Assembly (NCBI RefSeq): GCF_900107455.1
Contig: NZ_FNQB01000004.1
Coordinates: 506,193 to 570,192, forward strand
Length of the DNA: 64,000 nt
Origin: Asanoa ishikariensis
GTDB taxonomy: Bacteria > Actinomycetota > Actinomycetes > Mycobacteriales > Micromonosporaceae
Reading direction: 5' to 3'
Shown piece by piece: positions 6,964 through 38,068 of this stretch (position 1 is the first letter of the stretch; every line of letters starts with the position of its first letter). Both the position numbers and the translations under genes were made by a program. The notes under the pieces were generated by a model, which was given only the letters and a program-made list of their open reading frames with translations, was not told where the DNA came from and searched no databases.

Positions 6964-6980
6964 TGGACGTTCCTAACTCT

Positions 6981-7748: not shown

Positions 7749-7822
7749 CGAAGGACCGCCACGTCGTTCGGTCCTCCAGCGGCGAGAGGAGCAACGGACG
7801 CGGACGTAGGCGTGTCGAACAC
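7745..7822 (-). CDS. Short 25-aa leader ORF coupled to the ATPase gene
   Basis: GTG 7822 is preceded by a near-ideal AGGGAGGT ribosome-binding site (7827-7834) four bases away. The frame encodes 25 residues (begins MFDTPTSASV, ends DVAVLR), and its TGA overlaps the GTG of the ATPase gene as GTGA. The ATPase start has no good ribosome-binding site of its own, so this leader probably delivers ribosomes to it. It may instead be the remaining 3' end of a permease reading frame altered by the nearby insertion. No family is recognisable. Confidence 0.45.
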   Translation of the reverse strand: MFDTPTSASVAPLAAGGPNDVAVLR

Positions 7823-7855
7823 CCGTACCTCCCTAGTGACCATAAACTTCAATAC

Positions 7856-8929: not shown

Positions 8930-8989
8930 CCCTCGCATCCAGCGGGGCGACCGACTGCAAGCCCGTTCCTTAAGAGACGGGTTCATGAC
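8860..8989 (+). ncRNA. Predicted omega RNA (reRNA) of the TnpB element
   Basis: By analogy with studied TnpB elements, the guide RNA scaffold spans the 3' end of tnpB and the non-coding right end, and its guide continues into flanking DNA after the element. The terminal hairpin at 8961-8982 and the TTCATGAC end support this. The 5' limit is a guess. The guide would begin with the flanking sequence TGTTTCC after 8989, which belongs to the permease gene. Confidence 0.4.
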
Positions 8990-10979: not shown

Positions 10980-10987
10980 TCGAATCC

Positions 10988-11006
10988 TTAGCTAAGCCTG
11001 CCCTAA
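10988..11006 (-). promoter_or_regulatory. Iron box (IdeR/DmdR/DtxR operator)
   Basis: The 19-base site ttagctaagcctgccctaa matches the palindromic DtxR-family consensus TTAGGTTAGGCTAACCTAA at 14 positions, including both outer TTAG/CTAA ends. It lies nine bases upstream of the first siderophore permease start, where bound Fe-IdeR would block transcription or translation start. Confidence 0.75.
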
Positions 11007-11057
11007 CTGCGAAGGGCACTCTAATAGCCGAATTCACGTCGTGTCACAGGCCGTGAT

Positions 11058-14386: not shown

Positions 14387-14409
14387 CCGGGTTCCTTGAA
14401 TCAGAAGGA

Positions 14410-18772: not shown

Positions 18773-19999
18773 ATGACCGACAAAGCCGTTCCGGCGGCGG
18801 AGCTCTACACCGATGAGTTCGCCGCCGACCCGTATCCCGCGTTCGCCAAGCTGCGCACCGACAGTCCAGTGTGTCCGGTCACTTCGCCGCGGTTCGACTC
18901 GTTCCTGATCACCAGGTTCGAGGACGCCAAGGCGGCGTTGAACGACCCGCGGCTGTCCAAGGACCTCTACGGTCCGGGCGACCACTACCTGCGCATCTTC
19001 GGGCCGAACTCGGCGGGCCTGAACAAGAACATGCTCAACTCGGATCCGCCGGAGCACAGCCGCCTGCGCCAGGTCACCGGTCGGGCGTTCGCGCCGCGCC
19101 GGATCGAGGCGCTGAGGCCGCGCGTCGCCGAGATCGTCTCGGGCCTGCTGGACAAGGTCGAGCCGCAGGGCAAGGCCGACCTGATGCGCGACTTCGCCAT
19201 CCCGTTGCCGATGCTGGTGGTCTCCGAGCTGCTCGGAATCCCGCGCACCGACAACGACAACGTGCTCGAGTGGACCCAGGTGATCCGCGAGTCCGGGTCG
19301 TCCGGCCGGCCACCTGCGGAGGAGAAGGCGCGGGTGCAGGAGGCGCAGGCCTGGCTGCACGGCTATCTGCAGGACCTCGTGACGGCCAAGCGCGCCGAGC
19401 CGGGCGACGACATGGTCAGCATGCTGATCAGCGCCTGTGACGAGGAGGGCGTGCTCTCCGAGCGGGAACTGGTCAGCACCGCGTTCCTGCTGCTGTTCGC
19501 CGGGCACCAGACCACCGCGGACTTCATCGGCAACGCGATGGTGGCGCTGCTGACCAACCCCGAGCAGCTCGCGCTGTTGCGGAAGACGCCCGAGCTGCTG
19601 CCGCACGCGATCGAGGAGCTGCTGCGCTTCGACGGGCCGCTGCCGGTGGCCAGTCCGCGGGTCGCCACCGAGGACCTCGAGTACCAGGGCGTGCGTATCC
19701 CTGAAGGCTCGATCGTCGGTGTGGTCATCAACTCCGCGAACCATGACTCGGCGCAGTTCGAGGACGGGGACCGCCTCGACCTGACCCGGGAACGCGGGCC
19801 GCATCTGGGTTTCGGCCACGGGGTGCACTACTGCCTCGGCGTCTCGCTCGCCCGCATGGAGGCGCAGATCGGCATCGGCGCGCTGCTGCGCCGGCTGCCC
19901 GGTCTCGCCCTGAGCGTGCCGGTCGACAAGCTGCGCCGGCTGCCGGCCGCGTCACCGTTCCGCGGGCTGATCGAGCTGCCGGTCCATTTCACCGCCTGA
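18773..19999 (+). CDS. Cytochrome P450
   Basis: The protein has 408 aa, a bacterial soluble class I P450. It shows the I-helix oxygen-binding motif AGHQTT, the ExxR of the K helix in EELLR, and the heme loop FGHGVHYCLG with the axial cysteine near residue 355. GAGGAG precedes the ATG. No ferredoxin gene is nearby, so electrons must come from a shared partner. It is the outermost gene on this side of the polyketide locus, 33 bases ahead of the tandem cyclase in the same direction, and probably hydroxylates the polyketide; position on the product is unknown. Confidence 0.9.
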   Translation: MTDKAVPAAELYTDEFAADPYPAFAKLRTDSPVCPVTSPRFDSFLITRFEDAKAALNDPRLSKDLYGPGDHYLRIFGPNSAGLNKNMLNSDPPEHSRLRQVTGRAFAPRRIEALRPRVAEIVSGLLDKVEPQGKADLMRDFAIPLPMLVVSELLGIPRTDNDNVLEWTQVIRESGSSGRPPAEEKARVQEAQAWLHGYLQDLVTAKRAEPGDDMVSMLISACDEEGVLSERELVSTAFLLLFAGHQTTADFIGNAMVALLTNPEQLALLRKTPELLPHAIEELLRFDGPLPVASPRVATEDLEYQGVRIPEGSIVGVVINSANHDSAQFEDGDRLDLTRERGPHLGFGHGVHYCLGVSLARMEAQIGIGALLRRLPGLALSVPVDKLRRLPAASPFRGLIELPVHFTA

Positions 20000-20032: not shown

Positions 20033-20701
20033 GTGGTATTCCGCACTGTGATCGTCTGCCGCATCGTTCCGGGCAGTGAGCAGAAGGTCGCCGACGTGTT
20101 CGGCCACTACGACAAGGTGACCCGGCCGCAGGACGTCGGTGTGACCGGTCGCATCCTGTTGTCGCTGAAGGACCTCTACATCCACGTCGTCGAGCGCCCG
20201 CAGGACCCGGCGATCACCGGCAACAACCGCGGCCTGCCGGCGTTCAAGGAGATCGCCGAGCAGATCGCGCCGTACGTCACGCCGTACCCGCGCAACTGGG
20301 AGAACCCGTCCCACTCGGTGGCCAAGGAGTTCTACAGCTGGACCGCACCGGGGAAGACGGCCTCGGCCGGCGCCAACCCGCTGCTGATCGTCCAGCGGAT
20401 CAAGCCAGGCTCGGAGTCCGAGGTGGCGCGGATCTTCCGCGAGTCCGACGAGACCCCGCTGCCGACCCAGATGGGTGTCACGGGCCGGTGGCTCTACTCG
20501 ATCGACGACGTGTACGTGCATGTGATGGAGCGCACGGACGAGGCGGTCAAGGAGGGCCTGGGCTCCAACCACCACGCCCCGGCGTTCACGAAGATCATCG
20601 AGGACCTGGCGCCGTACGTGGCTCCGTACGACCCGGAGACCTGGCGTGGTCCGCAGGACTCGATGGCCAAGCCGTTCTACAGCTGGCGGGCCAGCGACTG
20701 A
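20033..20701 (+). CDS. Tandem-domain TcmI-type polyketide cyclase
   Basis: The protein has 222 aa and consists of two copies of the TcmI/WhiE-ORFVII polyketide cyclase fold, residues about 1-105 and 118-222. The repeats share RTVIVCRI/LLIVQRI starts, SLKDLYIHVVE/SIDDVYVHVME middles, and FYSW ends. Usual family members have one domain of about 110 aa and act as dimers, so this gene encodes a covalent dimer. The start is GTG 20033 with GAGGAG upstream. It would fold a late ring of the aromatic polyketide. A single-domain relative is encoded at 25978-26298 on the other strand. Confidence 0.88.
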   Translation: MVFRTVIVCRIVPGSEQKVADVFGHYDKVTRPQDVGVTGRILLSLKDLYIHVVERPQDPAITGNNRGLPAFKEIAEQIAPYVTPYPRNWENPSHSVAKEFYSWTAPGKTASAGANPLLIVQRIKPGSESEVARIFRESDETPLPTQMGVTGRWLYSIDDVYVHVMERTDEAVKEGLGSNHHAPAFTKIIEDLAPYVAPYDPETWRGPQDSMAKPFYSWRASD

Positions 20702-20716
20702 TCGGCGGCGCGTGGT

Positions 20717-20752
20717 GGCGGGGGTGTGGGCAGGTGTGCCCGCACCCCCGCC
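20717..20752. terminator. Strong hairpin terminator after the tandem cyclase
   Basis: The arms 20717-20732 and 20737-20752 make a 16-bp stem with one G-T pair and a 4-base loop. It insulates the STAND pair from the P450-cyclase unit. Confidence 0.8.
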
Positions 20753-20758
20753 GCGCGT

Positions 20759-20772
20759 TATAAATGGCCTAA
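20759..20772 (+). promoter_or_regulatory. Probable leaderless promoter of the STAND pair
   Basis: A TATAAAT element (20759-20765) ends six bases before ATG 20772, with no Shine-Dalgarno in between. This spacing would place the transcription start on the ATG, as in leaderless actinobacterial genes. No convincing -35 box is seen because the preceding bases belong to the terminator stem. Confidence 0.4.
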
Positions 20773-23366
20773 TGACAGACGTTCGGGCTGATGTGACCGG
20801 GGGCACGTCCGACCGGGTCATCCTGACACCGGACCAGCGGGTCCGGGTGTTCGTCAGCTCGACGCTCACGGAGCTGGCGGCCGAGCGGGAGGCGGTCCGG
20901 GAGGCCGTGGAGCGGCTGCACCTGTTGACGGTGATGTTCGAGGCAGGCGCCCGCCCGCACGCCCCGCGTGACGTCTACCGCTCGTATCTCGCGCAGAGCC
21001 AGATCTTCGTCGGCATCTACGACGAGAGCTACGGCTGGGTCGGGCCCGACTCGGCGATCTCCGGGCTGGCGGACGAGTACCGCCTGGCGCGGGGATTGCC
21101 CCGGCTGGTCTACGTGAAGGAACCGGCGCCGGCGCGGGACCCGCGACTGGCCGACCTGCTGGCGGACGTCGAGGCCGACATCAACGTCGTCCGCCGCCGG
21201 TTCCGGTCACCCGACGAGCTGCGGGGCCTCGTCGAGCGCGACCTCGCGGCGCTGCTCTCGCAGCGGTTCCACCAGACCCGGCAGGCGCGGGCCGGCGAAC
21301 CGGGGGAGGTCCTGCATGTCCCGTTGGCCCGCACCCCTTTGGTGGGACGCGAGCACGAGCTCGACCTGCTGAGCTCCCGGCTGACCCAGGACCGCGTGCA
21401 GTTGCTGACGCTGGCCGGTCCGGGTGGGGTGGGCAAGACGCGACTGGCGACGGCGCTGGCCGAGCGCGTCGCGTCCGGCTATCCCGACGGCGTGCGGTTC
21501 GTCGACCTCGCGACCGCCGGCAGCGTCGACAACGTCGGCGACGTGTTCGCCCGCGCGCTGCGGCTGCGTACCTCCGACGGCGTGGGTTCGTTCGACGACG
21601 TCGAGTCGTTCCTGCGCTCCAAGCGGATGCTGCTCGTCGTCGACAACTTCGAACACGTCGCAGGTGCCGCGCCGGGGCTGGCCGCGCTGCTGCGCGCGGC
21701 GCCCGGCGTGACCGCGGTGGTGACCAGCAGGGCTCCGCTGCGGCTGTCCGACGAGCGGGTGTACCGCGTGCCGCCGTTGCGCTCGGCGCCCAAGTCGACC
21801 CGCTTCGACGTGGCCACGCTCACCCAGCGGTTCAGCGCCGTGCGCCTCTTCGTCGACCGCGCCCGCGCCGCCGACCGGCGGTTCGCGTTGACGGACGACA
21901 ACGTCGAAGCGGTGCTGGAGATCACCCGTCGGCTCGGCGGCGTCCCGTTGGCCATCGAGCTGGCCGCGGCCCGGGTCCCTCTGCTGCCGCCCATGGCGAT
22001 CGCCGCGCTGCTGGACGACCAGCTCAGCCTGCTGACCGGCGGCCAGCGCGACCTGCCGGCCCGGCAGCGGACGGTGCGCGACACGTTGGCCTGGAGCTAC
22101 CGGCTGCTGCCGCCGGACGCACAGAAGCTGTTCGCCCGGACCGGGGTGTTCACAGGCGGGTTCGACCTCGCGGCGATCGAGGCGGTGTGCGCGGACGAGT
22201 CGTTCGACGTCTTCGCGGCACTGGAGTCACTTGTGGACGCCGCACTCGTCGAGCCGGACGACCATGACCGCTTCCGGATGGTCGACAGCGTCCGTTTGTA
22301 CGCGCTGGAGCGGCTCGGGGCCGACGACGACGTGACCGCGGCACGCGACCGGCACGCGGCCCACTTCCTGGATGCCGCCCTGCGCGCGGCGCCGTACCTG
22401 AACACCGTCGACTCACCCGTCTGGCTGGACCGGCTCGACCGGGAGCACGCCAACCTCGGCGCGGCGACCGAGTGGTTCCTGGACTCCGGCCGGCCCGCCG
22501 ACGCGCTTCGGATCGGCTGGGCGATCTGGCCGCTGTGGTGGCAGCGCGGGTACGTCGACGAGGCCGCGCGTGTCGTCAGCCGGATCCTCGACGGTGCCGA
22601 CCAGCTCTCGCCGAAGCTGCACGGCCGGGCGCTGGTGGCCTCAGGTGCGATGGCGCTCGTGTCGGGCCAGGACGCCCAGGCGCGCATCGACTTCGAGCGG
22701 GCGCGCGAGCTGGCCCGGGTGGCCGACGATCCCGTCACCGAGGCCCGCGCGCTTGGCCCGCTCGGCTCCTTCGCGAGCCGTGACGGTGACCACGAGCGGG
22801 CCGGCCGGCTGCTCCGTGAGGCGTACGAACTGGCGCTCAGCGGTGACGAGCAATGGCTGATCAGCCTCTTCCACAGCCGGATCGGGATGATCGCGTTCCG
22901 GCAGGGCGACCGGGCGGCCGCCGGTCGCCACCTCGATGACGCGGTGCGGGTCTCCGCGCAGGGCGGGGACGAGCTCGGCATGGTGGTCGCCCGCTACACG
23001 TCCGCCGCCGTGCGGTCGGCGGACGGCGACGGTGCGGGCGCCCACGACAGCCTCCTGGCCGGCCTGCGGTTGGCCGCGCGCAGCGGCGACCAGGCCAGTG
23101 TGGGGCTGTTCCTCGCGGCGTTCGCGGACCTGGCGGGCGCGGACGGCCGGCTGGTCCGGGCCGTACGGCTGGCCGCCGCCGCGGGGAGTTTCCAGACACC
23201 GTCGAGCAAGCTGTGGATGCGGGCGTACGTGCCACCCTGGCCTGTCGCCGGTCCGGACCTCGCGACGATGCGGGCCGGGCTCGGCGACGACCGCTTCGAC
23301 CGCGCCTGGCGTGAGGGCGAGCGACTCGGGCTGCGCGGCGCCATCGACGAGGCGGCCCAGGAGTGA
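20772..23366 (+). CDS. STAND ATPase: DUF4062-NB-ARC-TPR protein (second paralogue)
   Basis: The protein has 864 aa. DUF4062 is at about 22-165 (VRVFVSSTLTELAAERE start, RPHAPRDVYRSYLAQSQIFV). The NB-ARC NTPase follows, with Walker A GPGGVGKT at 216-223, a MLLVVDNFEHV Walker B, VVTSRAPLRL sensor and GGVPLAIELAAARV motif. TPR-like helical repeats fill the C-terminal third. The start is ATG 20772; earlier in-frame starts would run through the terminator hairpin. It is coupled by GTGA to the next gene, a close paralogue, so the two probably form one hetero-complex or a switch with two inputs. A regulatory or defence role is equally conceivable; no enzyme role in polyketide assembly is suggested. 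Confidence 0.85.
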   Translation: MTDVRADVTGGTSDRVILTPDQRVRVFVSSTLTELAAEREAVREAVERLHLLTVMFEAGARPHAPRDVYRSYLAQSQIFVGIYDESYGWVGPDSAISGLADEYRLARGLPRLVYVKEPAPARDPRLADLLADVEADINVVRRRFRSPDELRGLVERDLAALLSQRFHQTRQARAGEPGEVLHVPLARTPLVGREHELDLLSSRLTQDRVQLLTLAGPGGVGKTRLATALAERVASGYPDGVRFVDLATAGSVDNVGDVFARALRLRTSDGVGSFDDVESFLRSKRMLLVVDNFEHVAGAAPGLAALLRAAPGVTAVVTSRAPLRLSDERVYRVPPLRSAPKSTRFDVATLTQRFSAVRLFVDRARAADRRFALTDDNVEAVLEITRRLGGVPLAIELAAARVPLLPPMAIAALLDDQLSLLTGGQRDLPARQRTVRDTLAWSYRLLPPDAQKLFARTGVFTGGFDLAAIEAVCADESFDVFAALESLVDAALVEPDDHDRFRMVDSVRLYALERLGADDDVTAARDRHAAHFLDAALRAAPYLNTVDSPVWLDRLDREHANLGAATEWFLDSGRPADALRIGWAIWPLWWQRGYVDEAARVVSRILDGADQLSPKLHGRALVASGAMALVSGQDAQARIDFERARELARVADDPVTEARALGPLGSFASRDGDHERAGRLLREAYELALSGDEQWLISLFHSRIGMIAFRQGDRAAAGRHLDDAVRVSAQGGDELGMVVARYTSAAVRSADGDGAGAHDSLLAGLRLAARSGDQASVGLFLAAFADLAGADGRLVRAVRLAAAAGSFQTPSSKLWMRAYVPPWPVAGPDLATMRAGLGDDRFDRAWREGERLGLRGAIDEAAQE

Positions 23367-25996
23367 CGTCCGACCTGATCCTGACTCCGGACCAGCGGGT
23401 GCGCGTGTTCGTCAGCTCGACACTCACGGAGCTCGCGGCCGAGCGGCAGGCGGTCAGCGATGCCGTGGTCGGGCTCCACCTGGTGCCGGTCATGTTCGAG
23501 TCCGGCGCCCGCCCCCACGCACCCAGCGACGTCTACCGGTCCTACCTCGCCCAGAGCCAGGTCTTCGTCGGCGTCTACGACGAGAGCTACGGCTGGATCG
23601 GCCCCGACTCGACGATCTCCGGCCTGGCGGAGGAGTACGGCCTGGCGCGCGACCTGCCCCGGCTGATCTACGTGAAGGAACCGGCACCGGGCCGCGACGC
23701 GCGCCTGGCGGACCTGCTGGCGCGGATGGACCGGGACGCCGCCGTCTCCTACCGCTCGTTCCGCTCACCGGACGAGCTGCGCGGTCATGTCGAACGGGAT
23801 CTCGCCGCGTTGCTCTCCCTGCACTTCGACCAGGCCCGCCGGACGCCGCGGGACTCGGACACCGGTGCCGGCGACGGGATTCCGGTGGCCCGCACCCCGT
23901 TGGTGGGTCGGGAGCACGAGCTCGACGTGCTGGCCGCCCTGCTGACCGACGAGCGTGTGCCGTTGCTGACCCTGGCCGGTCCGGGCGGCGTCGGGAAGAC
24001 GAGGTTGGCCGGCGCCCTCGCCGCACGCGTCGCGGCGGGATATCCCGACGGCGTCCGCTACGTCGATCTGTCCGCGGTCACCGGTGGCGACGCGGCCGGT
24101 GAGGCGTTCGCCCGAGCCCTGCGACTGCGTACCTCCGGCGGTGTGGCCGCGTTCGCCGACGTCGTGTCGTTCCTGCGCTCCAAGCGGCTCTTGCTGGTCG
24201 TCGACAACTTCGAGCAGATCGTCGACCTGGCGCCACGCCTCACGACGCTGTTGCGCGCGGCGCCGGGCGTGTCCGTGGTGGTGACCAGCCGGGTCCCGCT
24301 GCGGCTGAGTGTCGAACGGGTGTTCCGGGTGCCCCCGCTGCGTTCCGCGCCGGACTCCGCCCGCCACGACCTGGCCATGATCACCCAGCGGTTCAGCGCC
24401 GTCCGGCTCTTCGTGGACCGCGCCCGGGCGGCCGACCGGCGGTTCGCCCTGACCGACGACAACGCCGCCGCGGTGCTGGAGATCACCCGCCGGCTCGGCG
24501 GCATACCGTTGGCCATCGAGCTGGCGGCCGCGCGGGTCCCGCTGCTGCCGCCCGCGGCCATCGCCGCCCTCCTCGACGACCAGCTCAGCCTGTTGACCAG
24601 CGGCCGGCGTGACCTGCCGGAGCGGCAACGGACCGTGCGGGACACGCTGGCCTGGAGCCACCGGCTGCTGCCGCACGACGCGCAGCGGCTGTTGGCCCGG
24701 ACCGGGGTGTTCGCCGGTGGGTTCGACCTCGCCGCGATCGAGGCGGTGTGCGTCTGCGACGAGGAACCGATGGACACTTTCGGTGCCCTGGAATCCCTTG
24801 TGGACGCCGCATTGGTCGAGCCGGACGGCGACGACCGCTTCCGGCTGGCCGAGAGCGTGCGTGACTTCGCCCGGGAGCGGCTCGCCGAGGTCGGCGAATG
24901 GGACGTGACGCACGACCGGCACGCGGCGTACTTCCGCGACCTGGCTCTGCGCGCCGAGCCTCATCTCAACACCGCCGACTCGCCGGAGTGGCTGAGTCGG
25001 ATCGAGCGCGACCACCGCAACCTCGACGCCGCGCTGGACCGGCTCCTTGACACCGGCCGGCCGGTCGAGGCGGTCGAGGTGTGCTGGGGCCTCTGGCTGT
25101 TCTGGTGGCGGCGCGGCCACATCGACGAAGGCGTGCGCTACCTGCGACGTGTCCTGGCGGACCCGGACGTGCTGCCGCCGGCTGTGCGCGGCCGCGCGCT
25201 GGTCGTCGCCGCCGCCATGGCCTACGTCTCCGGCCAGGACGACGAGGCCCGCACCACCTTCGAACAGGCGCGGGAGCTGGCCCGGGCGGCGGGTGACGAC
25301 GTCGCCGAGGCCCACGCGCTCGGCCCGCTCGGCACCTACGCGGCCCGCGCCGGCGACATCGACCGCGGGCGCGAACTGCTGGGCCAGGCGTATGAGCTCG
25401 CGGTGCGCGGCAACCGGCTCTGGCTGGTCAGTCTCTTCCACTGCCGGCTCGGCATGATCGCCTTCCGGTCGGGCGACGCGGCGGGTGCCGTGCGGCATCT
25501 CGACGAGGCCAAACGGGTCGCGGCGGAGGTCGACGACGAGCTCGGGCTGGTCGTCGCCCACTACTCGGCCGCGGTGGTGCGGGTCGCGACGGGCGACCTG
25601 GCCGGCGCTCACGCCAACCTCGTGGCGGGCCTGCGGTCCGCCTCGAAGAGCGGCGACCTGGCCTGCGCCGGGTGGATTCTCGTCGCGCTGTCAGACGTGG
25701 CCGCCGCCCGAGGCCGGTTGGTCCGGTCCGTGCGGCTGGCCGCCGCGGCCGCCACGTTCCGGACGCCGTCGGGCAAGCTGTGGATGCGGGCGTACGTGCC
25801 GCCGTGGCCGACCGCCGGCGCCGACCTCGCGGAGCTCCGGGTGCGCCTGGGCGACGAGCGGTACGAGCGGAGCCGGCGTGAGGGCGAACGGCTCGGGCTC
25901 GCGGGCGCGGTCGAGGAGGCGGCGCGGGACGACGAAGCGGGCGCCCCCGAAGGGACGCCCGCCCAGGTCGACGAACCTCAGCCGCGCCAGTGGTAG
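23363..25996 (+). CDS. STAND ATPase: DUF4062-NB-ARC-TPR protein (third paralogue)
   Basis: The protein has 877 aa with the same architecture: DUF4062 at about 8-155, Walker A GPGGVGKT at 206-213, LLLVVDNFEQI Walker B, VVTSRVPLRL sensor, GGIPLAIELAAARV and C-terminal TPR-like repeats. Long stretches are nearly identical to the preceding gene, which indicates tandem duplication. GTG 23363 overlaps the previous stop as GTGA. Its 3' end overlaps the converging cyclase gene by 19 bases, so the pair is tightly wedged inside the polyketide locus. Confidence 0.85.
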   Translation: MTSDLILTPDQRVRVFVSSTLTELAAERQAVSDAVVGLHLVPVMFESGARPHAPSDVYRSYLAQSQVFVGVYDESYGWIGPDSTISGLAEEYGLARDLPRLIYVKEPAPGRDARLADLLARMDRDAAVSYRSFRSPDELRGHVERDLAALLSLHFDQARRTPRDSDTGAGDGIPVARTPLVGREHELDVLAALLTDERVPLLTLAGPGGVGKTRLAGALAARVAAGYPDGVRYVDLSAVTGGDAAGEAFARALRLRTSGGVAAFADVVSFLRSKRLLLVVDNFEQIVDLAPRLTTLLRAAPGVSVVVTSRVPLRLSVERVFRVPPLRSAPDSARHDLAMITQRFSAVRLFVDRARAADRRFALTDDNAAAVLEITRRLGGIPLAIELAAARVPLLPPAAIAALLDDQLSLLTSGRRDLPERQRTVRDTLAWSHRLLPHDAQRLLARTGVFAGGFDLAAIEAVCVCDEEPMDTFGALESLVDAALVEPDGDDRFRLAESVRDFARERLAEVGEWDVTHDRHAAYFRDLALRAEPHLNTADSPEWLSRIERDHRNLDAALDRLLDTGRPVEAVEVCWGLWLFWWRRGHIDEGVRYLRRVLADPDVLPPAVRGRALVVAAAMAYVSGQDDEARTTFEQARELARAAGDDVAEAHALGPLGTYAARAGDIDRGRELLGQAYELAVRGNRLWLVSLFHCRLGMIAFRSGDAAGAVRHLDEAKRVAAEVDDELGLVVAHYSAAVVRVATGDLAGAHANLVAGLRSASKSGDLACAGWILVALSDVAAARGRLVRSVRLAAAAATFRTPSGKLWMRAYVPPWPTAGADLAELRVRLGDERYERSRREGERLGLAGAVEEAARDDEAGAPEGTPAQVDEPQPRQW

Positions 25997-26298
25997 AACT
26001 CCCGGGCCACCGCGTCCTGCGGTGACTTCCAGGTCTGCGGGTCGTACGGCTTGATGTAGGCCCGCAGGTCGTCGCTGATCTGCTTGAACCCGGCCATGCC
26101 GGGGCCCTTGCGCAGCGCCTCGGTCGGGTCCTCGGCGAACTCGATGACGTGCAGGTAGAGGTCGTTGAGCGAGTAGAGCGAGCGGGCCCTCACCCCCAGG
26201 TCGTGCGGGAGTGAGGTGGCGTCGGACGCCGCGAAGATCTGGGCCACCGACTGCTGGGAGTCGGGCTGGATCTTGGCAACGATCACGGTGCGGTTCAT
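25978..26298 (-). CDS. TcmI/WhiE-ORFVII-type polyketide cyclase
   Basis: The protein has 106 aa, one TcmI-type domain (NRTVIVAKIQPDSQQSVAQI start, SLNDLYLHVIE, AREFYHW end). Members close a late ring of aromatic polyketides. It is the last gene of the long leftward PKS operon; its ATG overlaps the monooxygenase stop as ATGA, and GGGAGGAAA precedes it. Confidence 0.9.
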   Translation of the reverse strand: MNRTVIVAKIQPDSQQSVAQIFAASDATSLPHDLGVRARSLYSLNDLYLHVIEFAEDPTEALRKGPGMAGFKQISDDLRAYIKPYDPQTWKSPQDAVAREFYHWRG

Positions 26299-28676
26299 GC
26301 GTTTCCTCCCTGATGGAATGAGTCGGTGCCACCTAGTGCGAAGATCCCTGCCAGGTGTGCGTCGAGCGCCTCGGCCGCGACCGGCGAGGTGCGGAACCCG
26401 ACGTGGCCGTCGGGGCGGATCAGGTAGGCGCCGGTGCCGCGCAGGCCGTACGCGGCGCGGAAGGTGCCCGACGCGTCCCGCAGCACCGGCACGTCCAGGC
26501 CGGCCGGCACGTCGGCGTCCGGGCTGGCCAGGACGTAGATGTTGACGAACCCGCGGACCTTCTCGGCCAGCTTGTCGAAGCCGGCGTACTCGTCCTGCGG
26601 CGTCGCGCCGTCCGCGTGCACCAGCAGAGTGTGCGCGGTGCCGCGGGTCAGCTCGAACAGCCGCGTCGGGTGACCGACCCCGAAGCGCCGCAGGTCGTGC
26701 GCGTCGGGCGCCCGGTCACCTGGCTGCGGACCGCCGTCGAACGCGTCGCCGTGTGCGCCGACCAGCGGGCTGCCGGCGTAGCTCAGCGTCATCTGCATCT
26801 CGAGCAGGAACTGCTCCCGCTCGTCGTCCATGTCCATCTCGTCGGTGAACGCGATCTTCACCGCGCGATCGACGATCGCCTTGCCGGCGGGCCGGCGCTC
26901 GGCCTCGTAGCTGTCCAGCAGCGCGGGCGCGGCGTCGCCGCCACACGCCAGGGCCAGCTTCCACCCGAGGTTCCAGGCGTCCTGGATGCCGGTGTTCATG
27001 CCCTGGCCGCCGGCCGGCGGGTGCAGGTGCGCGGCGTCGCCGACGACGAAGGCCCGGCCTTGACGGTAGCGGTCGACGATGCCGTGCTTGATCCGGAAGA
27101 TCGACGACCAGCGCAGGTTGCTCGCGGTCGTGGGCTCCGGGGCGAGCTCGTCCAGGACGACCTGGATGTCCGCCAGCGACGGCGGGTCGTACTCCGCCTG
27201 GAAGCCCGGCGGGATGGGGTTCGAGCCGATCTCGGCCTGCAGGCGCGGCGGGGCCAGGGTGGCCACCCGGTAGCGGTTGCGGCCCTTGAGCGGCACGCAG
27301 ACCAGCATGCCCTTCATCTCGTCGTCCTCGACGTGGATGAAGCGCAACAGGTGGCCCTCCGGCATCGACCAGTCCAGGTCGACGTCGCCCAGCATGAAGA
27401 GCTGGGGGAACATGCCCATGCCGCCCTCGAAGGTCAGGCCCAGCTTCTGCCGCACGGTGCTGTGTGCGCCGTCGGCGCCGACCAGATACTGCGCCCGCAC
27501 GGTCTCCGCGCGGCCGTCGGCCCCGACGAGATAGGCGGTCACCCCGTCGGCGTCCTGGGTGAACTCCTTGAGCTCGGTGCCCCGCTCGACCCGGACTCCG
27601 TGGCCGGCCAGGCACTTGGTCAGGATGTTCTCGGTCTCGTACTGCGGCAGGCCGACGTGCGCGTACGGCAGGTCGGGCAGGTCCCAGTCGACCTGGTGCG
27701 TCTGCCGGCCGTTGACGAACACGGTCTGGCCGTGCAGCCAGATGCCCGCGTCCATCGCCTCCCGGACGATGCCGAGGTTCTCCCAGATCTCCATCGTGCG
27801 GCACTGCACGCCGATCGCCTTGTCGGCGGTGCCGGCCGCGTCGGGCCGTTTCTCGACGAGCCGGCACGGCACGCCGCGCCGGGCCAGCTCGATCGCCGCG
27901 GTCAGGCCGGCCGGGCCCGCACCCACGACGAGCACGTCGGTTGAACTGTCCACCGTAGACCTCTCTGCGCTGGGTGCGGCCGGCTTCGCCGCGACGGGCT
28001 CGACCCGGGCGACCGGCTGCGGCCGCGGTGCCGCCTGGACGACGCCACCACCGGGCTGCGGGCTCTCCTGCGGCCGAGCCACGATGTGGTACGTGGCCCG
28101 CTCGAAGTTCTCGCAGATGTACTGGATCAGCGGAGCGGTCTGATCCAGGTGCGACTGGTCGTCGGTCCACGCCTCGAAGGACGCTTCGTCGAGCCACTCG
28201 GCGAAGATGTGGTACGTCCCGGTGCCGGGCTCGCGCAGCAGCTCCTCACGGACGTGCCCGGGCGTGCCGCGCATCCGTTCGGCGACCTTGCGGTAGGCCT
28301 TCTCGTACGCGGCCTCCTCGCCCTGCGGCACGGTGACGGTGACCCGCACCCGGATCCCCGGACCCCGGCCGACCACGGTCGACAGCACCTCGTACGTGTT
28401 CTTCTCGCCCGACTCGCGCAGGTCCCGCAGCGCGGCGGTGAGCTGCTCGCGCGCGGCGCTCGGCCCGAACGCGTCGAGCGCCTCCTGGTCACGCCAGTCG
28501 CTGACGATCAGGAACGTCTGCGGATCGTCGGCGTCCCGGATCAGCTCCTGACGCAGACTGCCCTGCGTCCGGCTGATCTCCTCGGCGGCGACCCGCCAGG
28601 CGGCCTCGAAGGCCTCGACGCAGCCCTCTCTGGCCCGCATCCTCAGGATCGTCCGAACTGGACCCTCATCCGGCAT
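26295..28676 (-). CDS. ABM-ABM-FAD monooxygenase fusion
   Basis: The protein has 793 aa with three parts. Residues about 1-105 and 107-205 are two antibiotic-biosynthesis-monooxygenase (ABM) domains, each beginning with a beta strand and carrying REELL/RQELI and DW/EW motifs. After a proline- and alanine-rich linker, residues from about 245 are a class A FAD aromatic hydroxylase: GAGPAGLTAAIELARRG for FAD, the GADGAHS motif, FVVGDAAHLHPPAGGQG near residue 540, and a C-terminal thioredoxin-like domain. In whiE clusters these activities are separate genes (ORFI and ORFVIII). A fused enzyme could pass the substrate from cofactor-free quinone formation to flavin hydroxylation. It overlaps the CLF gene by 11 bases. 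Confidence 0.88.
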   Translation of the reverse strand: MPDEGPVRTILRMRAREGCVEAFEAAWRVAAEEISRTQGSLRQELIRDADDPQTFLIVSDWRDQEALDAFGPSAAREQLTAALRDLRESGEKNTYEVLSTVVGRGPGIRVRVTVTVPQGEEAAYEKAYRKVAERMRGTPGHVREELLREPGTGTYHIFAEWLDEASFEAWTDDQSHLDQTAPLIQYICENFERATYHIVARPQESPQPGGGVVQAAPRPQPVARVEPVAAKPAAPSAERSTVDSSTDVLVVGAGPAGLTAAIELARRGVPCRLVEKRPDAAGTADKAIGVQCRTMEIWENLGIVREAMDAGIWLHGQTVFVNGRQTHQVDWDLPDLPYAHVGLPQYETENILTKCLAGHGVRVERGTELKEFTQDADGVTAYLVGADGRAETVRAQYLVGADGAHSTVRQKLGLTFEGGMGMFPQLFMLGDVDLDWSMPEGHLLRFIHVEDDEMKGMLVCVPLKGRNRYRVATLAPPRLQAEIGSNPIPPGFQAEYDPPSLADIQVVLDELAPEPTTASNLRWSSIFRIKHGIVDRYRQGRAFVVGDAAHLHPPAGGQGMNTGIQDAWNLGWKLALACGGDAAPALLDSYEAERRPAGKAIVDRAVKIAFTDEMDMDDEREQFLLEMQMTLSYAGSPLVGAHGDAFDGGPQPGDRAPDAHDLRRFGVGHPTRLFELTRGTAHTLLVHADGATPQDEYAGFDKLAEKVRGFVNIYVLASPDADVPAGLDVPVLRDASGTFRAAYGLRGTGAYLIRPDGHVGFRTSPVAAEALDAHLAGIFALGGTDSFHQGGNA

Positions 28677-29861
28677 CGCGCAGACCTTCCTCCCGATAGC
28701 GCTTGAGCACGATGGAGCTGTTGAAACCGCCGAAGCCGCGGGCGTTGACGAGCACCACGTCGGCGGCGAGCTGGCGCGGCTCGCGCACCAGGTCGAGGTC
28801 GTGACCCGGGCGGGCGAGGTTGCCGACCGCCGGCACGATCCCGTCGCGCAGCGCCAGCAGCGCGGTCGCCACGGTCAGCGCGCCGCCGCCCGAGCAGAGC
28901 CGCCCGATGTGACCCTGTGGCGCGGTGACCGGCACCGGCCGGCCGAACACCTCGCGGATCGCCTGCGCTTCCAGGGCGTCGAGCGCGGGTGTGGCGGCAC
29001 CGTCGGCGAACACGAACCCGACGTCGTCCGGCGAGACGTCGGCGTCGGCGAGCGCCTTGCGCATGGCCCGGACGAGCTGCGCGCAGTCGGGCGCGGGCCG
29101 CTCCGGGTGGTGTGCGTCGTGGGTCGCGGCGTACCCGGCGAGCTCGCCGTAGATCTGCTGCGCGCCACGTTCCGCTGCCGCCGCGGCGTCCTCGACGATC
29201 AGCACCGCGCCGCCCTCACCGGGCACGTGGCCGTCCGCGTCGGCGTCGAACGGCCGGTAGCCGGTCGCCGACAGCCGTTCGCTCGTGCTTTGGCAGACCA
29301 GCGCGTACGGGGACAGCGGCGCCTCGGTGCCGCCGGCGATGACGGCCGGTGTGCCGCGCCGGATCACCCGGCGCGCGGCGCCGAGGCTGTCCAGCCCGCC
29401 CGCGCCCTCGGACACCAGCACCTGGTTGGGACCCTTGGTCCCGTGCAGGATCGAGGTCTGCCCGACGCTGGCGGCGTAGAACCAGGCGATCGACTGGTAC
29501 GCGGTGACGGCCCGGCGCCCCTTGCTCCACAGCGCCTGGATCTCCCGCTGCCCGAACTCGTTGCCGCCGGAGCCGCTGGCCAGCACGACCGAGGTGGCGT
29601 ACGGGTCGTGCGCCGCCGGGTCGTACTTGGCGTCGTCGAGCGCCTGCCGCGTCGCCGCCAGCGACATCCAGGTCCACCGGTCGGTCTGGATGATCAGCCG
29701 TGGGTCGACGGAGCCCTCGGCGGCGAAGCCCGGCACCTGGCCGACCAACCTGCCGTCGAGCTCGCGCACGTGCTGTTCACCGGCCAATGTGGAGCGCCAG
29801 TGGTCCTCGGTGGTCAGACCGCTCGGCGCCACGACGCCGATTCCCGTGATGACGGCCCGCT

Positions 29862-29865
<4 letters not shown>
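28666..29865 (-). CDS. Chain-length factor (ketosynthase beta)
   Basis: The protein has 399 aa, a type II PKS KS-beta/CLF. The thiolase fold is complete, but the position of the catalytic cysteine reads [10 protein letters not shown], so the cysteine is absent, as in all CLFs. The glutamine usual in this place (EQAGGLD) is replaced by glycine (Gly154). The CLF pairs with KS-alpha and sets chain length. GTG 29865 is chosen because it overlaps the KS stop as GTGA and GGAGG lies eight bases before it; GTG 29874 is an alternative. Confidence 0.92.
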
Positions 29866-32326
<2,461 letters not shown>

Positions 32327-32330
<4 letters not shown>

Positions 32331-33694
32331 GATTCCTCCCGTGTCTGCGGATCGGTGAGCCGGCCGACGAGCGACGTGTCGTGGGTTCCGGCGACGAACA
32401 GCTCGTGCTTCAGTGCGGTCAGCAGGAAGTCGCGGTTGGTCCGCACCCCCGGGCCTTCGACGGAGAGCTCCGCGAGCGCCCGCCGCATCCGGGCGATCGC
32501 CTGGGGCCGGTCCGGGGCCCAGACGCAGATCTTGGCGAGCAGCGGGTCGTACGCGGCGGAGATGCGCCCGCCGGCCTCCGCGGCCGTGTCGACGCGGACG
32601 AACGGGCCGCCCGGCAGCGTCAGCTCGGTCAGCCGCCCTGGCGTCGGCATGAAGTCGCGATCCGGGTCCTCGGCGTTGATGCGGCACTCGATGGCCCACC
32701 CGCGCGCCGTGAGCTCCTCCTGCGACACGTCGAGCGGCTCGCCCGCCGCGATCCGTAGCTGCTCGCGGACCAGGTCGACGCCGTGGGTCAGCTCCGTCAC
32801 CGGGTGTTCGACCTGGATCCGGCAGTTGACCTCCATGAAGTAGAACCGGTGCTGGTCGTCGACGAGGAACTCGACGGTGCCGGCACCGACGTACCCGGCG
32901 GCGAGCAGGCCCCGCACGGCGGCGTGGCCCATCTGCTCGACCAGCCCGCGCGGCAGGCCCGGGGCGGGGGCCTCCTCGATGATCTTCTGGCGGCGGCGCT
33001 GCACGGAGCAGTCACGCTGGCCGAGGTGCAGCCCGTTGCCGTGGCTGTCGCAGAGCACCTGCACCTCGATGTGCCGGGCGGCCGGCAGGTAACGCTCGAC
33101 GTAGACGCGGTCGTCGCCGAACAGCGACTGGGCGGTGCTGCGGATCTCCCGGTACTGCCTCGGCAGGTCGTCGGGCTCGGTGACGACCTGCATGCCCCGC
33201 CCACCACCGCCCGCGACCGCCTTGACGATGACGGGATAGCCGATGTCGGCGGCCACCTTCGCGACGGCCTCGGCGTCGCTGACCGGTTCGATCGTTCCCG
33301 GCAGCAGCGGCAGGCCGGCGTCGGCCATCGCGGCACGGGCCGTGGACTTGTCGCCGAGCCGGTCGATCACGGCCGGGGGAGGGCCGACGAAGATGAGCCC
33401 TTCGGCCTCGCACGCCTCGGCGAAGTCGGCCTGCTCGGAGAGGAAGCCGTAGCCGGGGTGGACCGCCTCGGCGCCGGTCTGCCGGGCCGCCTCCATGATC
33501 GCGGGCAGGTAGAGGTAGCTGTGCCGGGCGGGACCGGGGCCGATGCACACGGCCTGGTCCGCGAAGCGTACGACGGGGCTGTCCCGGTCCTCGGTGGAGT
33601 AGACGGCGGCCACCCGCAGGCCAAGCTCGCGGCACGTGCGGGCGACGCGCAGGGCGATCTCGCCGCGGTTGGCGATGAGCACGGTGTCGAACAC
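32327..33694 (-). CDS. accC: Biotin carboxylase subunit of acetyl-CoA carboxylase
   Basis: The protein has 455 aa, full length for AccC, with LIANRGEIALRVARTCRELG at the start, the ATP-grasp loop AGGGGRGMQVV, MEVNCRIQVEHPVTE and the REQLRIAAG motif. It carboxylates biotin on the AccB protein encoded next. The start is GTG 33694. The cluster-borne enzyme would raise malonyl-CoA supply for the PKS. Confidence 0.93.
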
Positions 33695-33703
33695 GGCGAC
33701 CTC

Positions 33704-34213
33704 CTAACCGGCCTGGGGATCGATGGTCAGGAGCCGTTCGCCGAACTCGACCGCCGCGCCGTCCGCGACGTGCAGCGCCACGATCCGGCCCTCGGCGTCG
33801 GACTCGACCGGGATCATCAGCTTCATCGCCTCGACGATGCCGACCTGCTGGCCCCGGCGAACCTGGTCCCCTTCGGCCACGAAGGGCGTGGCACCGGGCT
33901 CCGGCGCCCGGTAGAAGGTGCCGACGATCGGCGCGCACACCCCGACGCCGGGCGGCAGAGCGGGCTCGTCGGCCGGGACTTCTACCGGCACGACGGCGGT
34001 GGTGGTGGCCGGTGCGGGGGCGGCGGGTCCGGCCGCCGCCTCCTGGACGGTCCACTCCATCTCGACGACCACGTCGCCGGCCCGGATCCGCAGCGCGCGG
34101 GGCCGGTGGCCCAGGTCGGCGAGGAGCGACTGGGCGCTGCGGCGGACCTCGTCCAACGCCTCCGCGAGCGGGGCCGGACTGTCGGTCGGCGCTGGTTCGA
34201 TCAAGGACGTCAC
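33704..34213 (-). CDS. accB: Biotin carboxyl carrier protein
   Basis: The protein has 169 aa: a divergent N-terminal region, an Ala/Pro linker at about 58-80, and a biotinyl domain with EAMKLM (biotin lysine Lys131). The linker and the [10 protein letters not shown] motif are as in bacterial AccB. GTG 34213 overlaps the AccDA stop as GTGA. Confidence 0.93.
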
Positions 34214-35907
34214 TGTGCTCCTCCAGGGTGCGAGAGTGCGGCGGCGCTCTGCGGGGCGTAACCGGGACCGGCGCCGAACCGGCGGAACCGCGCGCGCCGC
34301 TCGGCGACCAGGCGCCCGGGGTCGCGCGAGGCGAGGTCACTGAGCTCGGCCCGGATCGCGGCCCGGACCAGCGCCGCGGCGGCGGCCTGGTCGGCCTCGG
34401 CGCCGCCCGCAGGTTCCGGCACCACGCCGTCGACGACGCCGAGGGAGAGCAGGGAGCGGGCGTCGACCCGCAGCGCGCGGGCGGCGGTGGGCGCGGCGGA
34501 GGAGTCCTTCCAGAGGATGGCGGCGCAACCCTCCGGGCTGATCACCGTGTAGATCGCGTTCTCCATGATCAGGACCCGGTCGGCGACCGCGATGGCGAGC
34601 GCGCCGCCGCTGCAGCCCTCGCCGGTGACCACCGTGACCAGCGGGACCGGCAGGGCGCCCATCAGGCGCAACGTCTCCGCGATCACGGTGGCCTGCCCCT
34701 GCAGCTCGGCGTCCACCCCCGGGTACGCGCCGGGCGTGTCCACGAGCGTCACCACCGGCAGCCCCCACTTGGCGGCCAGCCGCATCAGCCGGGCGGCCTT
34801 GCGGTAGCCGGCCGGGTTGGGCATCCCGAAGTTGTGCGCGGCCAGGTCGGCGGGAGTGTGCCCCTTCTCGTGGCCGATCACGACGACGGAGTCGCGGCCG
34901 ATCCGGCCCACCCCGCCGATGATCGCCGGGCAGTCGCCGCCGACCCGGTCGCCGTGCAGCTCCTCGAAGTCGTCGAGGATCAGGCGGAAGTAGTCCGATG
35001 TGGTCGGTCGGCCGATGTGCCGGGCGCGACGCACCGCGTCCCAGGCGTCCTGTTCGGCGACCTGGTCGGGCTCGCGGATCACCACCTGCTCGACCGGGCA
35101 GACGTTGGCGGCGGTGTCTCGCCGGCCACCGACCGACAGGATCCGGCCCAGCCGCTCGCGCAGCGCCGACCGCGGCGACACCAGGTCGACGAAGCCGCGC
35201 TCCAGCAGGAACTCGGCCGTCTGGAACCCCGGCGGCAGCTCCTGCTTGATGGTCTGCGCGATCACCCGGGGGCCGGCGAAGCCGAACCGCGCGCCGGGCT
35301 CGGCGATGACGATGTCGCCGAGCATCGCGTACGACGCCGCCACGCCACCGTAGGTCGGGTCGGTGATCACGCAGACGGTGATCAGGCCGGCCTCGTCGAG
35401 CTGCTGCATGGCCTGCGCGGTCTTGGCCATCTGCATCAGCCCGACCACGCCCTCCTGCATCCGCACACCGCCGGACGCGGTCACCGTGATCAGGGGCAGG
35501 CGCTCGGCGAGCGCGGTCTCGGCGGCCCGCGTGATGAGCTCGCCGACCGCGCCGCTGAGGCTGCCGCCCATGAACCGGAAGTCCATCGCGGCGACGATCG
35601 CCGGTGTGTCGCCGATGGACAGCCGGGCGCAGAGCACCGCCTCCGGCATGCCGGTGGCCGCGCGGGCCTGCGCCAGGCGGTCGGCGTACGGCACGCCGTC
35701 GGTGAAGCCCAGCGGGTCCGCGGACGCGACCTCACAGTCCAGCGGGCGCAGCGAGTCCCGGTCGGCGAGCAGGTCGAGCCACTCCTGCGCGGTCAGCGGG
35801 AAACAGCCGCCGCACTGTGGGCAGACGCCGTGGTTGCGGGCCAACCGCTTGGCGTAGACGACGGCCCGGCAGTGCCGGCACAGCGCCCAGTCCGGTCGCG
35901 CGCTCAT
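34210..35907 (-). CDS. accDA: Acetyl-CoA carboxylase carboxyltransferase, fused beta-alpha subunits
   Basis: The protein has 565 aa. The N-terminal half is AccD-like with a zinc ribbon (CRHC…CPQCGGC, about residues 10-36), and the C-terminal half is AccA-like ([50 protein letters not shown]). E. coli has separate genes; fused forms occur in actinomycete polyketide clusters. It transfers carboxyl groups from biotin to acetyl-CoA to make malonyl-CoA. ATG 35907 overlaps the ligase-like stop as ATGA. Confidence 0.93.
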
Positions 35908-37082
35908 CCGGTCACCCCCGTGTCGACCAGGAACAAGGTGCCCTCGTCATCGAGATAGCCGACGTCGCCGGTGTGCAGCCAGCCGTCCGCGTCGGCGATG
36001 GCGGTGGCCACCTGCGGTCCGCGAACACGGACGAGGCCGGGCTTTCCCGGCGGGGCGGGGCGCCGCCCGTCGAGGTCGAGGACGCAACAGTCGGTGCTAT
36101 CCACCGGGTGCCCCACCGAGCCCGCCGTCTGGCGGTCGAGCCGGTCGCAGTGGGTCAGCGGGCCGCCGGCCGGGCCGTACCACTGCACCAGCGGTGCGCC
36201 GACGCGCAGGGCGAGCCGGCTGGCGGCGGACGGGGCGAGCGTGGCACCACTGGACAGCACGGCCCGCACCGTCGGCGTGCGCGGGTGCGTCGACCGGGGG
36301 TCGGCGGCCAGCCGGGCCAGCGGTGCGGGCAGTCCGCAGTAGTGGGTCGCCGCCTCCCGCGCGGCCAACGTGACGCCGCCCGCCGGGTCCGGGTCCGCGC
36401 AGAGCACCTGGGTCGCGGCCGCGTGTACCGCCGCGTTCAGGTACACCTGCTCGTACGTGGGGAGCTGGTTGACCACAGTCGAGCCGGGGCCGAAACCGTA
36501 GGCCTGGGCCGCCTGGGCGGCGCCGACCGTGAGGTTGCGGTGGGTCAGCGGGACGATCGCGCCGTCGGCGGCGCGCCGCAGGCAGGCGACCGTGTCGGGG
36601 TCCGCGGGCGGCAGCGGGCGGGCGCGCGCCGCGTGCTTGCGGACGAGGGCGGCCACGGTCTGGGCGCGGTGGTGGCCCGGCTGGTCCAGGTAGGCCACGT
36701 CCAGTTCGTCGCGCTCCACCCGGATCCGGCGAAGCTGGTCGGCCATGCCGGCGGTGGCCACGAGAAGCGCGATGCCGGCCCGCCCGACCAGGTCGTCGAG
36801 CGCGTCCTCGGTCAGGGCGGGATCCACGACCGCGCACACGTGTCCGGCGCGCACGGCGCCGAAGTAGGCGATCGGGAAGGCGGGGTGCAGGGCGGCCGTG
36901 ACGCCCACGACGGTGGTGGGCCGCAGGCCGCGCAGGGCCGCGGCGAACCCGTCCACGGCAGCGTCGAGCTCGCGGTAGGTCAGCGCCCGGGTGCCGTACC
37001 GGATGGCGGCCTGCTCGGGTGCGATCGTCGCCGCCCGCCGCAACAGCCCATCCAGCGACTGAGTGGACTCAGTTTCGGACAC
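35904..37082 (-). CDS. Degenerate acyl-CoA ligase-like protein (adenylation fold, truncated)
   Basis: The protein has 392 aa and is related to AMP-forming acyl-CoA ligases over the large N-terminal domain: [18 protein letters not shown] start, LTHRNLT, WYGPAGG and the [10 protein letters not shown] core aspartate region. Two essential parts are missing. The ATP-binding loop that usually reads TSGTTGxPKG is here [11 protein letters not shown]. The chain stops directly after LFLVDTG, so the C-terminal lid with the catalytic lysine (about 100 residues) is absent. It is the first gene of the PKS operon and is coupled to AccDA. Adenylation activity is unlikely; a binding or scaffold role is a guess. 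GTG 37082 has AAGGAG upstream. Confidence 0.8.
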
Positions 37083-37267: not shown

Positions 37268-38068
37268 ATGAAGTACCACGTTCTTGGTCCGCTGCTGGTG
37301 AGGGCCACACCTGCCGGCCCGCCGGATCAGCTCACCGCACCGAAGCCACGCAAGGTGCTGGCCCTGCTCCTGCTGCACGCGAACCTGGTCGTGCCGGTCG
37401 AGACACTGATCGTCGAGCTGTGGGGCGACGAGCCGCCGGCCAGCGCGCAGACCACGCTCCAGACCTACATCCTCAAGACCCGCCGGATGCTGGTGACCGC
37501 CCTGTCCGTCGGCCCCGACCAGCTCGCCAGCGAGATCCTGGTGACCACGTCCGGTGGCTACCGGCTCAACGTCGGCCCCGGCGAGCTGGACCTGCACGAG
37601 TACGAGCGGCTGGCCGCCGCCGGCCGGGCCGCGCTCGGCCAGGGCGACGACGTCGAGGGAGCGCGGCTGCTCGCCGAGGCGCTCGGCCTCTGGAAGGGCG
37701 GAGCGCTGGTCGACGTGCGGCTCGGCCCGGTCCTCCAGGCGGAGGTGCAGCGCCTGGAAGAGCGCCGGCTGAGCCTCTGGCGCCAGCGGATCGAGGCGGA
37801 CCTGCGGCTCGACCGACACCAGGCGGTGCTCGGCGACCTGGGTTGGCTGGCCTCCCGGCACCCGCTCAACGAGGACCTCCAGGCGCAGTACATGGTCGCG
37901 CTCTACCGGGCGGGCCGGCGCACCGACGCGCTGGAGGCCTTCCACCGCCTGCGCGGCACGCTCCAGGACGACCTGGGCCTCGAACCGTCACAGCGGGTCC
38001 AGCGCCTCCAGCACGCCATCCTGACCGCCGACCCGGCCCTGGACCACCACGCCTACGCGGCGATCTAG
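37268..38068 (+). CDS. SARP-family pathway activator
   Basis: The protein has 266 aa, matching DnrI/RedD-length SARPs: an OmpR-type winged helix at 1-100 (PKPRKVLALLLLHANLVVPVETLIVELWG) and the bacterial transcriptional activation domain at 105-255 (SLWRQRIEADLRLDRHQ, HPLNEDLQAQYMVALYRAGRR). It is read away from the PKS operon across a shared 185-base region and probably activates it. There is no ATPase domain. Its TAG overlaps the converging gene's stop within CTAG. Confidence 0.93.
   Translation: MKYHVLGPLLVRATPAGPPDQLTAPKPRKVLALLLLHANLVVPVETLIVELWGDEPPASAQTTLQTYILKTRRMLVTALSVGPDQLASEILVTTSGGYRLNVGPGELDLHEYERLAAAGRAALGQGDDVEGARLLAEALGLWKGGALVDVRLGPVLQAEVQRLEERRLSLWRQRIEADLRLDRHQAVLGDLGWLASRHPLNEDLQAQYMVALYRAGRRTDALEAFHRLRGTLQDDLGLEPSQRVQRLQHAILTADPALDHHAYAAI

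Follow-up and report, generated by a model that had tools for sequence, protein, structure and literature searches.

A truncated acyl-CoA ligase at the head of an Asanoa aromatic-polyketide operon is probably a retained pseudoenzyme

The window analysed here is a stretch of 64,000 nucleotides from Asanoa ishikariensis, and it carries a minus-strand aromatic-polyketide operon that opens with a gene for a truncated acyl-CoA ligase, which we refer to as the pseudo-ligase, and ends with a gene for a TcmI-type cyclase, in agreement with a prior reading made from the letters alone (the sequence-only reading) that this gene leads a PKS operon. A SARP regulator gene lies divergently upstream. The features are as follows, with the evidence for each in brackets.

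35904..37082, minus strand: pseudo-acyl-CoA ligase, 392 aa, N-terminal ANL domain only (ORF reading, Pfam, alignment)
34210..35907, minus strand: fused beta/alpha acetyl-CoA carboxylase carboxyltransferase (Pfam, NCBIfam)
33704..34213, minus strand: biotin carboxyl carrier protein (BCCP), EAMKLM present (Pfam, residue reading)
32327..33694, minus strand: biotin carboxylase (Pfam, NCBIfam)
32073..32330, minus strand: acyl carrier protein (ACP), LDSL present (ATG at 32330 picked from the translation)
31121..32095, minus strand: TcmN-type polyketide cyclase fused to a cupin (Pfam)
29862..31141, minus strand: ketosynthase (KS) alpha, Cys in STGCTSG, start approximate (Pfam, residue reading)
28666..29874, minus strand: chain-length factor (CLF) (Pfam, residue reading)
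26295..28676, minus strand: ABM-FAD monooxygenase (Pfam)
25978..26298, minus strand: TcmI-type cyclase, PF04673 (Pfam)
37268..38068, plus strand: SARP regulator, divergent to the operon (Pfam, NCBIfam)
20033..20701, plus strand: PF04673 cyclase in two stretches, probably in the cluster (Pfam)
18773..19999, plus strand: cytochrome P450, possibly in the cluster (Pfam)

The key residues are thus intact in the ketosynthase, ACP and BCCP of this operon. The monooxygenase at 26295-28676 (minus strand) has two ABM stretches within one FAD monooxygenase protein, and the cyclase at 20033..20701 also gives a weak SchA/CurD match that falls under the Pfam cut-off. Between the cluster cyclase genes (20646-25996, plus strand) there are two adjoining large STAND-type NTPases with DUF4062 and TPR repeats, for which PADLOC gives only marginal matches (E 3e-4 and 1e-3); at loci L031 and L032, too, the operon is adjoined by a match to one of the pair. 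Outside the polyketide operon, FecCD-type uptake genes (two permeases, a binding protein and an ATPase; 6019-14710, minus strand) adjoin GH31 and GH15 glycosidases.

The pseudo-ligase is encoded by an open reading frame on the minus strand (37082-35904) that is intact, as the sequence-only reading had stated, and that encodes 392 residues between a GTG at 37082 and a TGA at 35906-35904. At E 1e-3 its sole Pfam match is AMP-binding (PF00501; E 4.4e-42), and the score of 144.7 bits against a cut-off of 29.9 places it in the ANL superfamily; the other five Asanoa orthologues score 118-162 bits. The C-terminal lid, PF13193, does not come up for the 392-residue protein at the same threshold, and is found in none of the six Asanoa proteins scanned compared with all three of the distinct intact relatives scanned. 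The ligase stop codon and the start codon of the carboxyltransferase gene (34210-35907) share an ATGA, and the same overlap is present at the equivalent position in all six Asanoa orthologues. The two genes may thus be translationally coupled, as the sequence-only reading had it. An AlphaFold2 model built from a four-sequence alignment has a pLDDT of only 36.7 and a pTM of 0.26, and a structure-based analysis of the pocket was therefore set aside.

To dissect the losses within the protein we aligned it with 24 full-length relatives from outside Asanoa (L007-L030; a further three entries, L031-L033, repeat three of the six Asanoa sequences), from which five positions stand out.

36546..36581, minus strand: scar of the A3 P-loop (about residues 168-179), TSGTTGxPK missing (alignment, 24 intact relatives)
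36432..36467, minus strand: altered A4 acyl-pocket motif (residues 206-217), HPMH changed to EQVY (alignment)
36150..36185, minus strand: altered A5 motif (residues 300-311), which replaces GYGLAETSPLTH (alignment)
35958..35972, minus strand: retained A7 motif TGDVG (residues 371-375) (alignment, motif count)
35904..35933, minus strand: truncation point, FLVDTGVTG-stop, before the A8 hinge, the lid and the A10 Lys, with the ATGA overlap (alignment)

When searched as patterns, motifs A3, A4, A5, A7 and A10 are all found in 24/24 relatives, and A7 alone is found in the Asanoa proteins, in 6/6. The P-loop (S/T)GTTGxPK is absent from all six Asanoa proteins and present in every relative, with a remnant in genome G072. 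Where the relatives run on as FLVDRLKDVFK into the lid and the lysine motif, the window protein stops at FLVDTGVTG, so that its chain ends ten residues past GYLDDEGT. The sequence-only reading had described the protein as lacking both the TSGTTG-type ATP loop and the complete lid with its catalytic lysine, and both descriptions hold against the 24 intact relatives. Two further changes were absent from it: at A4 the relatives have PTYHPMHLN and the window PTYEQVYLN, with E211, V213 and Y214 of this region fixed in all six Asanoa proteins, and at A5 GYGLAE is represented by WYGPAG(G). The glutamate of the A5 YGxxE motif, which positions ATP/Mg, is lost in 5/6 Asanoa proteins and alignable in G072, and the A7 ribose Asp (TGD) is kept in an invariant column. 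G072 (L004/L037) is the deepest Asanoa branch and has SGSPPRLVP at the loop and WYGTAEAPMTH at A5, where survival of the glutamate depends on gap placement; its sequence reads as an intermediate state, with part of the P-loop (SGSPPR) left and an A5 Glu that can still be aligned, which suggests that loss continued after the genus split.

The consequences of such changes can be gauged from mutational data. As given in excerpts of PMC8388817, mutations of the P-loop residues Thr161 and Gly163 have 2,000- and 1,000-fold effects, those of A4 His207 and A5 Glu306 have 500- and 50-fold effects, and the A10 lysine is the key catalytic residue. Given the combined motif losses, adenylation by the Asanoa protein is very unlikely. 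It is also quite improbable that the protein remains catalytic in some other manner, either with a remodelled pocket (E211, Y214, C249, W301) that runs an ATP-independent reaction such as acyl transfer or hydrolysis, or with a helper that supplies the lid. The fixation of the replacements in all six proteins and the kept A7 Asp would suit such an activity, but no known catalytic arrangement is recognised, no PF13193 match occurs among the 27 window proteins scanned, and with the P-loop gone as well ATP chemistry would not return even if another protein provided the lid, so that a lid provided in this way is not favoured.

The check put forward in the sequence-only reading was a search for orthologues with matching losses, full-length active orthologues in sister strains being taken there as a sign of a decaying gene. 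Each of the six Asanoa genomes examined contains a single ligase match (E<=1e-30), adjoined by the carboxyltransferase gene, and in each it is the truncated form, with a nearly identical end. The main losses recur in 6/6 and that of the A5 Glu in 5/6, and no full-length orthologue is present in these six genomes; recurrence of the main losses in all six genomes indicates that they are more than chance. The presence of full-length relatives in other genera points to the truncated form being derived. A role as regulator of an intact paralogue was considered and is not favoured in view of the single match per genome. In G052 there are further carboxyltransferase-like (63%) and CLF-like (56%) genes on another contig (G052:C14:73596-74438 and 107376-108572), possibly a second type II PKS.

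We then asked how far the amino acid sequence has been held. In a neutral simulation, in which fourfold-site changes in the other cluster genes stood for the neutral process, the ligase of the window is predicted to share on average 26-52% identity with its five Asanoa orthologues, with the highest replicate at 31-60%; the observed identities are 73-93% and exceed every neutral replicate for each of the five pairs. The simulation was run with nine genes and 1000 replicates, and since its KS-alpha rows start too early in two taxa it was rerun with KS-alpha left out and 500 replicates, with equal outcome. Fourfold divergence of the ligase itself (0.20-0.40) is higher than in the other cluster genes (0.15-0.33), which means that the real neutral identity may lie a little below the simulated one. 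The ligase frame has no stops in any of the six genomes, which is weak evidence of selection because 274-361 of the 500 neutral replicates are likewise stop-free. Estimates of dN/dS by NG86, a method that inflates the ratio in GC-rich genes so that values are compared within the cluster and backed by the simulation, are 0.148 for the closest pair (the window and A. hainanensis) and 0.316 for the pair A. iriomotensis/A. siamensis. Over all 15 pairs the ligase median is again 0.316, above that of each of the other nine cluster genes compared, SARP coming next at 0.285; the KS-alpha value was set aside, its sequence being too long in two taxa.

The pattern of retained positions is uneven. Among 85 columns that are identical in at least 23 of the 24 intact relatives, 54 are kept by every Asanoa protein, 20 have been lost from every one and 11 differ between them. 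The columns lost from every protein are concentrated in the motifs (10/24, against 10/61 elsewhere; Fisher p=0.02, with motif spans of our own choosing and the A5 Glu column scored as lost under that alignment). Nine otherwise conserved columns have one shared alternative residue in all six Asanoa proteins, E211, V213, Y214, A244, C249, L298 and W301 among them. Conservation peaks inside the protein, with 24/28 positions invariant at residues 225-252 and 21/28 at 57-84, and the last block has 14/28. This distribution bears on whether the reading frame is simply a translational leader, its 3' end carrying start signals for the carboxyltransferase gene and its protein a by-product. The position of the gene as first in the operon and the ATGA overlap in 6/6 genomes are in keeping with such a function, but it would account for the 3' end alone, where conservation is not at its highest, and the equivalent operons of four other genera (described below) have no ligase and a carboxyltransferase gene with an upstream region of its own; we regard this explanation as highly unlikely.

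A more serious contender, if still an unlikely one, is that the gene is simply decaying, the ligase being useless beside its polyketide core and on its way out. The three kinds of lesion, the top-ranking median dN/dS, the fuller motifs of the deepest Asanoa branch and the four genera without the gene, in which loss may already be complete, would all be expected of decay. They are set against identity far above the neutral simulation, dN/dS of 0.15 and 0.32 in two close pairs, nine columns that share one replacement in all six proteins and, for what little stop absence conveys, a frame intact throughout. Neither frame disruption nor neutral amino acid divergence, as would characterise a decaying pseudogene, is seen. 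Judged from these alignments, the remaining N-domain is under purifying selection, and the gene appears to be a kept pseudo-ligase, not a neutrally decaying one; at the sequence level, loss of catalytic motifs is combined with purifying selection on the protein, as in a pseudoenzyme. The conserved, non-catalytic ligase envisaged in the sequence-only reading is thereby supported, both by the truncated form in all six genomes and by the selection upon it.

As to ancestry, the six Asanoa forms constitute one clade (100/100) that is joined to intact ligases of another genus, g17 (100/99), on a stem of 0.65 changes per column compared with 0.087 for g17, and with shorter crown branches; the long branches of this tree, L027 and the outgroup, whose joins may be artefactual, lie outside the Asanoa/g17 group. 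Five g17 loci have the order SARP, full-length ligase, carboxyltransferase, BCCP and biotin carboxylase. The g17 ligases have a C-terminal ABM part in L007-L014 (eight genomes) and none in L015-L017 (three genomes), and in the latter the gene following the unfused ligase starts MVTF, as the ABM part does; the two sets form a natural fusion/split series like that of ChdL-ChdOIII and OxyH/OxyG. At L041 an ACP-like match is positioned between ligase and carboxyltransferase. One g17 cluster also holds a FAD monooxygenase and a PF04199 cyclase, PF04199 being the family of the MtmY-like cyclase that, with a SnoaL-like protein, is a partner of the MtmL/OxyH/SsfL2/ChdL ligases, and no PF04199 or SnoaL-like partner is present among the 27 window proteins scanned. 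A Streptomyces plasmid encodes an ABM-fused relative with 49% identity to L007, whose annotated neighbours are an aromatase/cyclase, NTF2-family and cyclase-family proteins, a FAD monooxygenase and SDR oxidoreductases, in a cluster that also has a minimal PKS, methyltransferases and deoxysugar enzymes; two further relatives, also on plasmids, belong to another type of cluster, which has aromatase, SDR and minimal PKS genes. Among 394 genomes of the class, with three candidates scored per genome, there are eight other matches above 560 bits, with open frames of 629-834 aa, and the loop is present in all eight, in two cases as a TTGTT variant; a second origin of the truncation was not seen outside Asanoa in that sample. 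Since the gene context of the intact relatives resembles that of MtmL, OxyH, SsfL2 and ChdL, the gene most likely descends from an adenylating cyclase ligase of this type in a SARP-ligase-carboxylase block.

The nearest operons were sought among 149 of 300 genomes with a chain-length factor match at E 1e-100. Outside Asanoa the nearest are in G062, G042, G019 and G009 (CLF 69-74%), one genome for each of four genera, and all four operons are syntenic from SARP through the carboxylase to the TcmI-type cyclase and are without the ligase, such that SARP and carboxyltransferase matches are 263-300 bases apart and the 20-kb stretches examined contain nothing that matches the ligase at E 1e-3. A full-length member of the ligase family does occur in G062, at a distance of about 159 kb and next to a different KS/CLF pair (L027/L050). 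That four genera run the operon without a ligase indicates that the gene is dispensable for this pathway type. In the KS/CLF tree, Asanoa and the four ligase-free genera form one group (100/93), the placing of which with G104 and G021 is weak (27.8/58) and leaves the place of g17 open. The carboxylase tree groups Asanoa, the four genera and g17 apart from G104, G021 and G073 (100/100), with support of 7.1/42 for the order among them. Identities to the window differ between the two parts of the operon: chain-length factors of g17 are at 48-50%, compared with 58% for G104 and 55% for G021, and carboxyltransferases of g17 are at 72-74%, compared with 59% and 55-60%, a pattern consistent with replacement of the PKS core next to a SARP-carboxylase block that these lineages have in common. 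Two histories remain, in one of which the ligase of the block was lost in four genera and reduced in Asanoa, and in the other Asanoa alone acquired a ligase-bearing block and then reduced its ligase; the carboxylase tree gives good support to neither g17 nor the four genera as the closer kin of the Asanoa block.

We propose, with a probability of about 0.6, that the protein is a pseudoenzyme derived from an adenylating cyclase ligase and kept in Asanoa as a non-catalytic accessory, as a chaperone or scaffold. The ancestral ligase would have sat in the SARP-ligase-carboxylase block, and beside a TcmN/TcmI-type polyketide core ATP-dependent activation of a carboxyl group may no longer have been needed, making the ligase redundant. 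Its acyl-binding N-domain would have been retained without catalysis, most likely to bind a partner enzyme (the carboxylase or the PKS), the ACP, or an acyl or polyketide chain, and the accessory could then tune flux or fidelity in the manner of chain-length factors and of ABM proteins such as ForS. Because four genera do without the protein, its role must be either specific to the Asanoa pathway or quantitative. A more specific and distinctly tentative version is that the remodelled pocket (H to E211, H to Y214, Y to C249, G to W301) belongs to an Asanoa-specific chaperone that presents the polyketide, or the arm of its ACP, to the TcmI/TcmN-type cyclases, or else links the dedicated acetyl-CoA carboxylase with the PKS for local delivery of malonyl-CoA. 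The sequence-only reading had suggested a scaffold, a CoA-thioester sensor or a starter-unit binder, all of which are conjectural as roles for this protein. Binding of a starter unit is the least attractive in view of the intact relatives, whose gene context is that of late fourth-ring cyclases, and of the four genera with an equivalent operon and no ligase, which indicate that the gene cannot be needed for that chemistry in general; supply of an acyl-CoA starter by the protein acting as a ligase was rejected, the ATP machinery being gone.

In the open-licence literature we found no paper on an inactive or truncated acyl-CoA ligase or pseudoenzyme in a type II PKS, and among the matches listed for pentangular clusters, Asanoa, spore pigments and pseudoenzymes the gene is unreported. 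A single gene slot is seen here in three states, as an intact enzyme (g17), a conserved pseudoenzyme (six Asanoa genomes) and an absence (one genome in each of four genera), and so provides a natural comparison for asking when a biosynthetic enzyme that has become redundant is retained in a non-catalytic capacity.

Two FadD13 chains, 3t5b and 5zrn (396 and 398 residues), are N-terminal domains of ANL enzymes and have a domain boundary similar to that of the 392-residue protein; they are laboratory constructs, and keep the P-loop. Among the acyl-CoA ligases that close the fourth ring in aureolic acids and tetracyclines, excerpts of the respective papers describe MtmL as required for the fourth ring of mithramycin (PMC7247220), SsfL2 as closing a fourth ring by ATP-dependent Claisen condensation (PMC5321127), and ChdL-ChdOIII of chelocardin as a 643-aa ligase-oxygenase fusion, OxyH and OxyG being separate, translationally coupled genes (PMC7749508). 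The intact relatives share the ligase-plus-ABM layout of MtmL, OxyH, SsfL2 and ChdL-ChdOIII, with the ABM part either fused or encoded by the next gene as in OxyH/OxyG, and the cluster of the Streptomyces plasmid relative resembles the mithramycin and chelocardin gene sets, as compared by gene context alone. The Asanoa protein differs from MtmL, OxyH, SsfL2 and ChdL in being without P-loop, lid and catalytic lysine, which ATP-dependent adenylation of a tricyclic acid would need. As a putative non-catalytic partner in a type II PKS it resembles the ABM protein ForS of formicamycin, for which a role as a chaperone-like fidelity factor was proposed after deletion analysis, according to excerpts of PMC6689052; the families are unrelated, and the ForS role comes from deletion whereas that in Asanoa is predicted from sequence. 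The chain-length factor (KS-beta) offers a second likeness, in a different family, as an enzyme homologue without its catalytic residue encoded in the same operon, and in the window it has SEGAG (read by eye) where the ketosynthase has STGCTSG. The chain-length factor is an obligate partner of KS-alpha, whereas related operons do without the pseudo-ligase. The pseudo-ligase joins chain-length factors and ABM proteins as a candidate for a non-catalytic part of type II polyketide synthases.
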